From the NCBI GenBank assembly GCA_903870415.1, contig CAIQDA010000510.1:1-54899 (forward strand): a DNA stretch of 54,899 bases. The letters are read 5' to 3'. The notes beneath the pieces are model-generated. The model searched no databases, was not told the DNA's origin, and saw only the letters and a program-made list of their open reading frames with translations. This DNA is from an uncultured delta proteobacterium. Its GTDB lineage: Bacteria; Myxococcota_A; Polyangia; Polyangiales; Polyangiaceae. Both the position numbers and the translations under genes were made by a program. Every line of letters begins with the position of its first letter. The first letter of the stretch is position 1. Of this stretch, positions 29,048 through 35,491 are shown piece after piece.

Positions 29048-32000
29048 ATGAGCGACAAACCTACCGCAACGACCCCCGACCGACGCCTCTTTTTGAGTCA
29101 GTTGTTTGCCGCCGGCGTATCGGCTGCCGCACTCGCCACCAAGGCGTCACAGGCTGCGACGGCCCTTGCGCCCGTTAACGTGGCCAATCCGTTCGCCGCG
29201 TACCCGTCCCGCGACTGGGAAAAAGTCTACCGAGACCTCTACAAGTCCGATTCCACGTTTGTGTGGCTATGCGCCCCAAACGACACGCACAACTGCCTGC
29301 TGAATGCGCATGTGAAGAACGGCGTCGTCACTCGCATTTCCCCAACCTACGGCTACGGGAAAGCGAAAGACCTCGACGGAAAAAGCGCCTCCCACCGTTG
29401 GGACCCCCGGGTTTGCCAAAAAGGTCTCGCGATGGTTCGCCGCTTTTACGGCGACCGGCGGGTGCGCAAGCCAATGATTCGCCGCGGATTCCTCGAATGG
29501 GCGGAGTCCGGATTTCCGCGTGACGCCGACGGACGGGTTGATCCGAAATACCTTCAGCGCGGAAAAGACACGTGGATCGCAGTGCCCTTTGAGCGCGCGT
29601 TCGACATCGAGGCCCTGGCGCTGAAGAATATCGCCGAGACGTACGACGGCAAAGCAGGCTCCGATCGCCTCCTTGCGCAAGGCTACGACCCCGCGATGGT
29701 GGGAGCTGTCGGCGGCGCCGGCGTGCAGGTGCTGAAGTTTCGTGGCGGAATGCCCGCCCTCGGAATGACCCGCATCTTCGCCCAGTACCGCATGGCGAAC
29801 TGCATGGCGCTCCTCGACGACAAGATCCGCGGCAAAGGTCGCGCAGGATCCATCGGCGCACGCGGTTGGGACAACTACTCGTGGCACACGGACCTTCCGC
29901 CGGGTCACCCCATGGTCACCGGCGCGCAGACGGTCGACTTCGACCTTTGCAACGTCGAATATGCCAAACTCATCATCGTCTGGGGCATGAACTGGATCAC
30001 GACCAAGATGCCGGACGCGCATTGGCTTACGGAAGCCAGATTGAAGGGCGCGAAAGTCGTCGTGATTGCGTGCGAATACAGCGCGACGTCGAACAAAGCT
30101 GACGAATTTGTGATTTGCCGCCCTGGCGTCACCCCTGCCATTGCCCTCGGCGTTGCTCAACAGATTCTCGCGAATAAGTCCTACGACGTCGTTAACGTCA
30201 AAACGAAGACGGACCTTCCTTTCCTAGTCCGCATGGACACGGCGGAACTCCTCCGCATGAAGGACCTCGACCCGAACTACAAGGCGCCGCCCCCCGTGCG
30301 CGACGTGACGGTCCTCAAGGCGAACGAGGCAGCCCCACCCCCAGTGCAGCAGAGAGGCACCGTCGTCACGGAAGATCAGCTCGAACGCTGGGGAACGCCC
30401 GTCGTTTGGGACACGAAGCGCAAAAAGGCCGTGCCTGTGCCCCGCGACGCGTTCGGGAAGTTCTTCACCGCCACCAACGTCGACCCCGCGCTCGAGGGCG
30501 AATTCGAAGTGGAGCTCGCGAACGGCGCAAAAGTACGCGTGCGAACCGTGTTTCAGGTGACGAAAGAAGTCCTCGACGCGAGCTATACGCCAGAACAAGT
30601 CGAGAAACTGACGTGGGCCCCCGCCAGCGCCATCCGCTCGCTTGCCAAGCAAATCGCTAAGAACCGGCAGCATACGCTCTTCGCGTGCGGCATGGGCCCG
30701 AACCAATTCTTCAACAGCGACCTTAAAGATCGAGCCATTTTCCTCATTGCCGCTTTGACCGACAACGTCGGCCACTTTGGGGGAAACGTCGGCAGTTACG
30801 CTGGCAACTACCGCGCCGCCCTGATGAACGGTCTTCCGCAATACATCATGGAAGATCCGTTCGATGCGGAACTCGATCCCCAGAAGCCGGCACGCGAGAA
30901 GGCGTTCTACAAAACGGAGAGCGTTCACTACTTCAACCACGGTGACACCGTGTTGCGGTCTGGCAAACACCTTCTCACTGGAAAAACGCACCTTCCGACG
31001 CCGACCAAGAGCATCCACGTCAGCAACTCAAACTCGCTGATCGGAAACGCAAAGGGTCACTACGAAACGGTCATGAATGTCCTCCCGCGTGTGGACATGG
31101 TCGCCATCAACGAGTGGTGGTGGACGGCGAGCTGCGAATACGCCGACATTGTTTATGCGGTCGACAGCTGGCTCGAGGCGAAATCGCCCGACATGAGCAT
31201 CTCGTGCACGAATCCGTTCTTGTACACGTTTCCGACGACGCCCCTGCCCCGCATTCACGGCACGCGTGGCGACACCGAAGTGGCCGCGGGCGTATGTCGC
31301 GCATTGGGAACGCTTCTCGGAGACGATCGATTCGCCAAATACTGGGCCTTCACAGGAACCGAGCCGGGTTCCCGAACGTATCTTCAGCGCATTCTCGACA
31401 AATCCGGCCCGACACGTGGCTACCGCCTGGAAGACCTGGAGAAGAACGCGCAGGCGGGCATTCCCGCCATCGTCCAAACGCGAACCTATCCGAAAGTGGG
31501 CGGCTGGGAACAGGCTTACGAAGACCGAACCTGGTACACGAAGAGCGGGCGCCTCGAATTCTACCGCGATGAAGCAGAATTCCGCGACTCCGGCGAGAAC
31601 ATCGTCGTTCACCGGGAACCGATCGACTCAACGTTCCACGAACCCAACGTCATCGTCTCGACGCCGCACCCGCTCATTCGGCCAAAAACGCCTCAAGATT
31701 ATGGGGTCGACCCGAACGACCTCTCGGGCGACGCGCGGCAGGCGCGGCACGTGTTGCGAACGGTTGATGAAGTCGTCGCGAGCAAACATCCGCTGATGGC
31801 TCAAGGGCATCGCTTCATTTTTCACACGCCAAAGTACCGGCACGGAACGCACAGCACGCCTACCGATACGGACATCGTTGCGGTTTGGTTCGGGCCCTTT
31901 GCCGATATGCGCAGGAAAGACCCTCGCCAACCGTTCGTCAACGAAGCCTACGTGGACATCAACCCGGACGACGCTAAATCGCTCGGTGTCGAAGAAGGCG

Positions 32001-32530
32001 ACTACGTCACCATTGACGCGGACCCGCACGACCGCCCGTTTCACGGCTGGCAGCAGCGTCCAGAGGACTACAAGATGGCTCGGCTCGTTGCGCGAGCCCG
32101 TTATTACGCGGGCACGCCACGGGGCGTCACGCGCATGTGGCACAACATGTATGGTGCAACCTACGGGTCTGTCGAGGGACAGAGGACCAATCCAAACGGT
32201 CTCGCGAAATCGCCACACACGGGCTACCAGGCCGTTTTCCGCACGGGAAGCCACCAAAGCTGCACACGCGGCTGGCTCAAGCCCACGTGGATGACCGACT
32301 CGCTCGCGGTCAAGAGCATGCTGACGCAACAAATGGCGGAAGGCTTCGTCGCGGACGTTCATTGCCCGACCGGAGCCCCTCGTGAAGCCTTCGTCACCAT
32401 TTCGAAAGTCGAAAACGGCGGCCTCGGTGGAAAAGGCGTTTGGGGACCGGCTGCCCGCGGTTGGCGGCCGACGTATGAGAACGACGATTTGAAGAAATTC
32501 CTCGCCGGGAAGTTTGTCTCTCGAACCTAA
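29048..32530 (+). CDS. Exported molybdoenzyme alpha subunit, type II DMSO-reductase family (Nxr / periplasmic Nar-like)
   Basis: A 1160-residue bis-MGD catalytic subunit. A Tat signal is at 11-36 (DRRLFLSQ, hydrophobic stretch, SQA), so it works in the periplasm, unlike NarG. The FS0 cluster site reads Cys75-x3-Asp79-x3-Cys83-x39-Cys123; classical NarG-type subunits have His-x3-Cys-x3-Cys-x34-Cys. The Mo ligand is Asp282 in [10 protein letters not shown], equivalent to the NarG aspartate. The beta, gamma and chaperone genes follow directly, as in Nxr, Ebd, Ser, Clr and Ddh operons. The neighbourhood (nosZ, ric, FNR-type site) makes nitrate reduction or nitrite oxidation the best guess; chlorate or selenate reductase cannot be excluded. 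AGAGGG precedes the start. Confidence 0.9.
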
Positions 32531-34748: not shown

Positions 34749-35491
34749 ACGCGCCTACTTCGCTGCGTGACCTTGCTCGCGCGGACCTCTTCTTCGGGCT
34801 CGCAAACGCGTTTGCGCCGAACGCTCTGACCGCCAAGGAGTCGCTCCATCGCTTCCTCGACCTGAGAGAACCCTTGGCGCTCGCGGGCCTCTCTGCGGGT
34901 CCGTGGGGCGAATTGCTGGGCTCGCTTCTCGAGCGCCTTGAGACGGAAGACATGGACGCGCTGCGAGCATCGCATGACCTTCTTTTCGGTGCGAACGCCG
35001 TTTGCCCTCCGTGGGAATGCAGTTATGTTCCAAGGGACAGGGGCGCGATTCTTGGTGACGTCGCGGCGTTTCATCGCGCGTTTGGCGTCGGTCTCGATGC
35101 CACATGGCACGAGCGCATTGACCATATTAGCGCGGAATTCGAGCTACTCGCGATTCTTCATGTCATGAGCGCTCGAGCGCTTGAGGCCGGAGCGGCTGAG
35201 GATATCGAGATCACCCAAGCGGCGATCCAAAGCCTGTCGAGGGACCATCTCGACGAATGGCTTCCGTCTTTCTGCGCGAGGCTCGTAGAATCGGATGTGA
35301 GTGAATGGCACGCCATGCTTGGCGCCCTCACACTGGAATATTGGCTGGCCCTCCACGGCGATCACGAACTTGTCGCGCGCGGGCGACGCTTGCCCCTCCT
35401 CGACGACGGTGACGACCTCGCGTGCGCGGCGCTTGTCACGGACGGGGCACAGACGGCGCTCCAGGCCTCCACGGGGGCGACGGAGCCATGA
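34745..35491 (+). CDS. TorD/NarJ-family molybdoenzyme chaperone (delta)
   Basis: An all-helical protein of about 248 residues; ARADLFFGLANAF, ASHDLLFGANAVCPPWECSY (typical loop of TorD-like chaperones) and HISAEFELLAILHVM match the family. It would hold the alpha subunit until the cofactor is inserted and export is allowed. It overlaps gamma and moaA by ATGA on both sides, tying enzyme assembly to cofactor synthesis. Confidence 0.85.
   Translation: MNAPTSLRDLARADLFFGLANAFAPNALTAKESLHRFLDLREPLALAGLSAGPWGELLGSLLERLETEDMDALRASHDLLFGANAVCPPWECSYVPRDRGAILGDVAAFHRAFGVGLDATWHERIDHISAEFELLAILHVMSARALEAGAAEDIEITQAAIQSLSRDHLDEWLPSFCARLVESDVSEWHAMLGALTLEYWLALHGDHELVARGRRLPLLDDGDDLACAALVTDGAQTALQASTGATEP

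Follow-up and report, generated by a model that had tools for sequence, protein, structure and literature searches.

In the crystal structure of the nitrite oxidoreductase (NXR) of the anammox bacterium Kuenenia (KsNXR), the FS0 iron-sulfur cluster of the catalytic subunit is held by C67, D71, C75 and C115; lineages differ in carrying three cysteines and one aspartate or three cysteines and one histidine at this site, and the enzyme catalyses nitrate reduction as well as nitrite oxidation (PMC8387239). Kitzinger et al. described a clade that holds putative nitrate reductases (NARs) of known nitrate reducers, a characterised Hydrogenobacter nitrate reductase and the Nitrotoga NXR, and posed as an open question which reaction these enzymes carry out, nitrate reduction, nitrite oxidation or both (PMC6050957). 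Here we describe a gene cluster for a complex of this kind in an uncultured Myxococcota bacterium (assembly GCA_903870415.1, 4.69 Mb, 98% complete), located on contig CAIQDA010000510.1 (C510), of which positions 1 to 54,899 constitute the window. The complex is a member of the periplasmic NXR/NAR family (NxrABC type, type II dimethyl sulfoxide (DMSO) reductase family), and we put at roughly 0.7 the probability that its operon encodes a periplasmic, cytochrome c-fed nitrate reductase of NXR structural type.

Among solved structures, the anammox NXR 7b04 is nearest to each of the three subunits, and the catalytic alpha subunit scores 835 bits against NXR, compared with 184 for PcrA, 132 for EbdA and 108 for NarG. 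An AlphaFold2 model of alpha, built from an input of 37 window and locus sequences, has a mean per-residue confidence (pLDDT) of 79 and a pTM of 0.83, with modest pLDDT near FS0 (58–78 around residues 71–90 and 121–130). Foldseek searches with this model return the 7b04 alpha chains at the top (E 4e-87 to 7e-103, TM 0.86–0.90), and PcrA (TM about 0.6 by query length, against 0.87), EbdA and NarG well behind. Among public curated models no named family is above its cut-off for alpha; the NCBIfam narG model TIGR01580 gives 127.7 bits (cut-off 1084), the first FS0 place being Cys and not His, and DMSO_red_II_alp, the NCBIfam model for the type II enzymes acting on perchlorate, chlorate, selenate, DMS and ethylbenzene, gives 298 bits (cut-off 985). 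These scores also bear on whether the complex is a reductase for another oxyanion (perchlorate, chlorate or selenate) or a type II hydrocarbon or sulfide dehydrogenase, as its type II membership and a gamma subunit of the EbdC kind might suggest. The gamma fold and haem ligands of EbdABC are indeed alike, but its alpha and beta subunits are far less so, and the substrate Asn is Ile in EbdA, whereas Asn78 and Asp282 of the window's alpha match nitrate and nitrite enzymes. Furthermore, NAR and ethylbenzene dehydrogenase, EbdA included, carry His at the first FS0 place (PMC8387239). We consider an enzyme for any such substrate highly improbable and dropped the other oxyanions on bit and fold scores; the first-pass annotation, which had listed them beside an NXR or a periplasmic nitrate reductase, was right at the level of family in the latter two.

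The anatomy of the complex is of NXR type, since the FS0 ligands, a beta-subunit tyrosine and the gamma haem ligands all match KsNXR or the wider clade. Alpha has the twin-arginine (Tat) motif DRRLFLS, in which R12, R13 and F15 are conserved (a motif reading), and the FS0 site C75-x3-D79-x3-C83-x39-C123, both as first annotated. These four residues align with KsNXR C67, D71, C75 and C115, and alignment to 7b04 predicts Asp79 to be an FS0 ligand; at the molybdenum site, D282 aligns with KsNXR Asp275, and N78 with the substrate asparagine, Asn70. In an alignment of the fetched loci every readable member of the window's clade (94/94) carries the FS0 Asp, a count that is biased because one of the two genome-scan patterns itself included Asp, and that leaves out one haloarchaeal locus (L116) with an unreadable N-terminus; the Asp is also present in all 13 loci from a plain protein search (L002–L005 and L148–L156, two of which repeat L048 and L066). 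In the same alignment 30/32 sequences of the Nitrospira/anammox clade have it, and all 18 NarG-type chains read His at position 75 and Cys at position 79. Asp79 had been singled out as a distinguishing oddity, and we dropped it as the mark of a new enzyme, as it is invariant in the clade and a crystallographically observed family ligand (PMC8387239).

Two loci from a Gammaproteobacteria sample, L159 and L160, have alpha subunits 62–63% identical to Kuenenia NxrA with Cys at the place of Asp71 (ICSPNCTHEC), so that their FS0 looks, on sequence, like a four-Cys cluster; they may be a genuine exception to the Asp rule within the clade of nitrite-oxidising bacteria (NOB) and anammox. In L160 a gamma homologue stands 5' of alpha.

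The beta subunit keeps 15 cluster cysteines and has Tyr189 at the [3Fe-4S] position, within C186-x2-Y-x2-C192, where it aligns with the Tyr of KsNXR-B. The replacement of a cysteine reported earlier is thus present, and we dropped it as an oddity because Tyr or Trp is usual at this site: 89/90 clade members have Tyr, as does the Nitrospira/anammox clade, and NarH has Trp. Gamma is an EbdC-kind lipoprotein, as proposed, with an EB_dh domain (PF09459, 89.6 bits) and the lipobox VLGC, and translation of its gene most likely begins with the ATG at 33696 and not with the TTG at 33579. Its haem ligands M224 and K377 (numbered on the longer open reading frame (ORF) from 33579) align with KsNXR-C M155 and K305, and are kept in 70/71 and 66/71 clade members respectively, the rest being gaps. 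The residues first thought odd are therefore family traits, and the complex is a further member of a described clade. With the anammox and Nitrospira NxrABC enzymes (7b04, Kuenenia) it shares three subunits, the Asp at FS0, the Tyr at [3Fe-4S], a Met/Lys haem b gamma and the whole-length fold, but alpha is just 37–38% identical and the place of Cys45 in beta is taken by Asp in Nitrospira. Escherichia coli NarGHI is likewise of type II, with Asn and Asp at the molybdenum site and a Mo/FeS chain, but shows only about 23% identity; it differs in the His/Cys pair of NarG at FS0, where there is no Asp, in the Trp of NarH in place of Tyr189, and in the membrane subunit NarI where the window has a haem b lipoprotein.

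We built two trees of alpha, one with FastTree (110 rows) and one with an IQ-TREE mixture model (45 rows), neither including Nitrotoga, Hydrogenobacter or Nitrospina sequences. Both agree that Nitrospira, Kuenenia and the two gammaproteobacterial sequences form one clade (support 100), and that its sister clade (support 99–100) is made up of the window together with every other NXR-type row (95 in the first tree, 36 in the second); in neither tree is the window's alpha inside the NOB/anammox NXR clade (Nitrospira, Nitrospina, anammox). The sister clade corresponds to that of Kitzinger et al. (PMC6050957) and so was already described. It is very large, with at least 569 confirmed relatives, the best 80 of which span more than 10 phyla. 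The window falls in a 21-row subclade (support 100) with Thioploca, Parabeggiatoa, Thiomargarita, a Thiosymbion symbiont and planctomycetes, and its alpha is 65–67% identical to the enzymes of the first three. Nitrate reduction is described in Beggiatoaceae (PMC6052272), and the enzyme of isolate 4572_84 (Parabeggiatoa/'Beggiatoa' sp., OQY53866.1; our locus L024) is listed by Chicano et al. as a Beggiatoa nitrate reductase. These Beggiatoaceae enzymes share with the window the C-PND-TH-C FS0 site, the alpha-beta-gamma-chaperone order and the Tat motif; what sets the window apart is its Myxococcota host and a unit that includes moa/moe genes and a cytochrome c gene of its own. The other Myxococcota copies do not group with the window and are scattered in several places of the tree, and because it groups instead with Beggiatoaceae and planctomycetes, the tree suggests that the enzyme moved between phyla. 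A single hint on the distance to Nitrotoga, which we place from the literature, comes from the Mo-site pair: QT in the window's alpha, QM in Nitrotoga.

The haloarchaeal relative L116 lies on a Natronococcus occultus plasmid (8001–11380) and is 47–48% identical. Its alpha, the N-terminus of which is unreadable in one frame, has no annotated gene; beta and TorD are annotated, and ric and a cbb3-type oxidase gene are nearby.

The neighbourhoods of the relatives lean towards nitrate reduction. One locus (L041) has an nrfH-like gene and nrfA (Cytochrom_C552, 460 bits) directly 3' of the operon, and five planctomycete loci (L027, L032, L035, L037 and L039) have alternative complex III (ACIII) genes 5' of it; a Rieske protein is encoded 5' of the operon in about 23 loci and a multihaem cytochrome in 26. 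Genes of moaA type, a cluster that may include other radical-SAM genes, are near 26 loci, and ric is near 12. Loci L041–L044 have homologues of the window's small cytochrome c (46–56% identity): in L042 and L043 the gene lies directly 5' of alpha, and in L041 and L044 it is close to the operon. The window's cytochrome is probably the electron partner of the complex. We dropped linkage to nosZ as a clade feature, as the only strong match is the window's own NosZ; other matches are short CuA/cupredoxin-like ORFs weakly similar to NosZ, for example about 6 kb 3' of alpha in L085, L095, L061 and L098 (Omnitrophica, HR10).

The content of the host genome leans towards nitrate reduction as well. Its other molybdopterin-domain proteins are NuoG and ActB only, and genome searches found no NarG, NapA, NirS, NrfA, NorB or RuBisCO, and no NirK above cut-off. 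The sole NIR_SIR protein of the genome is most likely assimilatory, because a CysN-type gene adjoins it. A clade II (Sec-dependent) nos cluster occupies 46524–53279 on the minus strand and encodes NosZ (TIGR04246, 840 bits), a cytochrome c, a membrane protein, NosD, an ABC ATPase and a permease-like protein; ric lies at 25.1 kb (TIGR03652, 234 bits), and both NosZ and Ric are above cut-off. Since neither nitric oxide reductase nor nitrite reductase was detected, the host appears to reduce nitrous oxide that it does not itself produce through these routes. The first-pass annotation had proposed nitrogen-oxide chemistry from the company of nosZ, ric and an FNR-type site, all of which we found, and this proposal is well supported.

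We favour nitrate reduction because the nearest kin are nitrate-respiring Beggiatoaceae, because the sister clade holds NARs and has nrfHA, ACIII and Rieske contexts, and because the host genome lacks NarG, NapA and RuBisCO and has clade II NosZ with ric nearby. Several points weigh against this reading. The sequence does not by itself fix the direction of the reaction; a true nitrite oxidiser's enzyme, the Nitrotoga NXR, belongs to the same sister clade (PMC6050957); the genome has aa3 and cbb3 oxidases as well as ACIII, and these oxidases with the cytochrome c could take electrons from nitrite; and with no nitrite reductase found in the genome, nitrite would not be respired further. Nor is the FNR-like box strong as a regulatory site: it is the sole site in the window with at most one mismatch, 0.45 being expected by chance per window, and is suggestive only. 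Such boxes are not enriched 5' of the clade's genes (4/79, compared with a 3.9% background), and we dropped the site as a clade signature.

The Nitrotoga NXR, the two oxidases and the lack of a detected nitrite reductase also speak for an enzyme that is mainly a nitrite oxidoreductase. In this reading periplasmic nitrite would be oxidised, and haem b and cytochrome c would hand the electrons on to aa3 or cbb3 in a heterotrophic nitrite oxidiser, which this genome content would also allow. Family and ligands are shared with KsNXR, the gamma subunit is periplasmic and soluble and a cytochrome c gene is adjacent. Nitrite oxidation, which the earlier annotation thought would be notable here, nonetheless fares poorly against the trees, in which alpha is outside the exclusively NXR clade of Nitrospira and anammox and nearest to nitrate respirers; moreover, the clade's neighbourhoods contain quinol-to-cytochrome modules and nrfHA, RuBisCO is missing from the genome, and NosZ, ric and the possible FNR box suggest low-oxygen use. 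We regard this explanation as unlikely and see nothing that indicates it specifically. That a RuBisCO-less Myxococcota bacterium oxidises nitrite to nitrate by a sister-clade NXR and respires via aa3 or cbb3 seems to us distinctly improbable; to our knowledge nitrite oxidation has not so far been shown in this phylum. A reversible enzyme working in both directions, for example in nitrite detoxification with oxygen and nitrate reduction without it, is quite unlikely; KsNXR catalyses both reactions (PMC8387239), two-way use was proposed for the clade by Kitzinger et al. (PMC6050957) and the genome has both oxidases and NosZ, but it offers no direct evidence for such use, which would require a high-potential cytochrome c.

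The genes of the operon and its surroundings are listed in Table 1. Those at 29048–35491, annotated at first as the complex, are real, but the unit appears to extend beyond them to the cytochrome c gene and the moa/moe genes. Start and stop codons overlap as ATGA at 34745 (gamma and chaperone) and 35488 (chaperone and moaA) and as GTGA at 37516 (moaCB and moeA), and because of these overlaps at least nxrABC-torD-moaA-moaCB-moeA look like a single transcription unit; one operon that includes the cytochrome c gene is probable. MoaA scores 277 bits against TIGR02666, slightly below the cut-off of 284, and a small ORF from about 38784, 5' of moaE, reads as moaD-like on its sequence.

Table 1. Features of the nxr operon region of the window.
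Feature	Position	Strand	Evidence or remark
FNR/CRP-type box CTGATCGCGATCAA	28422..28435	+	1 mismatch to TTGAT-N4-ATCAA; ~117 bp 5' of cytochrome c gene
Small mono-haem cytochrome c, Sec-type signal, CTGCH	28552..28950	+	PF13442/PF00034
Alpha (catalytic), NxrA/periplasmic-NarG type, 1160 aa	29048..32530	+	7b04_B E 5e-250
Beta (electron-transfer), NxrB type, 375 aa, no signal peptide	32560..33687	+	7b04_A E 1e-103
Gamma, NxrC/EbdC-like haem b lipoprotein	33696..34748	+	7b04_C E 1e-24; PF09459
TorD/NarJ-type chaperone for alpha	34745..35491	+	PF02613 55 bits; TIGR03482
moaA (GTP 3',8-cyclase)	35488..36474	+	Radical_SAM, Mob_synth_C above cut-off
moaC-moaB fusion	36491..37519	+	NF002947 305.8 bits (cut-off 285)
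moeA (molybdenum insertion)	37516..38769	+	NF007960; PF03453/PF00994/PF03454
moaE	39007..39513	+	PF02391
mobA-like (molybdopterin guanine dinucleotide (MGD) synthesis)	40781..41668	+	PF12804

From these components we infer a route for nitrate reduction. The TorD-like chaperone would assemble alpha, which would hold Mo-bis-MGD and a [4Fe-4S] FS0 with an Asp ligand, using molybdenum cofactor supplied by the co-transcribed moa/moe genes; the Tat system would export alpha folded, together with beta. Gamma would serve as a lipid-anchored haem b protein in place of the membrane subunit NarI. ACIII would carry electrons from the quinol pool to a small cytochrome c in the periplasm, very probably the one encoded in the operon, and from there they would move through haem b, the four FeS clusters of beta and FS0 to molybdenum, where nitrate would be reduced to nitrite. 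At low oxygen the complex would act as the only nitrate reductase detected in the genome; the nitrite would probably be released, as no dissimilatory nitrite reductase was found, and N2O would be reduced separately by the clade II NosZ.

Two further loci of the window lie outside the operon. A Radical SAM/SPASM protein (TIGR04053, 410 bits, cut-off 395), which we take to be close to the AhbD and NirJ types, is encoded at 44602–45741 (plus strand) between the Nxr and nos clusters. At 833–8451 (minus strand), genes for phosphotransferase system (PTS) enzyme I, RapZ, HPr kinase, EIIA, a ribosome hibernation factor and sigma-54 stand in a row.

We take the host to be a partial denitrifier, in which nitrate is reduced as far as nitrite and N2O is reduced to N2. 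The value to specialists is modest and lies in a clear operon in a new host and in a very large and poorly annotated clade; as the only nitrate-active enzyme detected in the genome shares an operon with its cytochrome c gene and the genes for its cofactor, the window is a tidy test case and no surprise. The clade is huge, and because curated models assign it to no named family above cut-off, many genomes may be recorded as having no nitrate reductase or, from a BLAST match, as 'nitrite oxidisers'.

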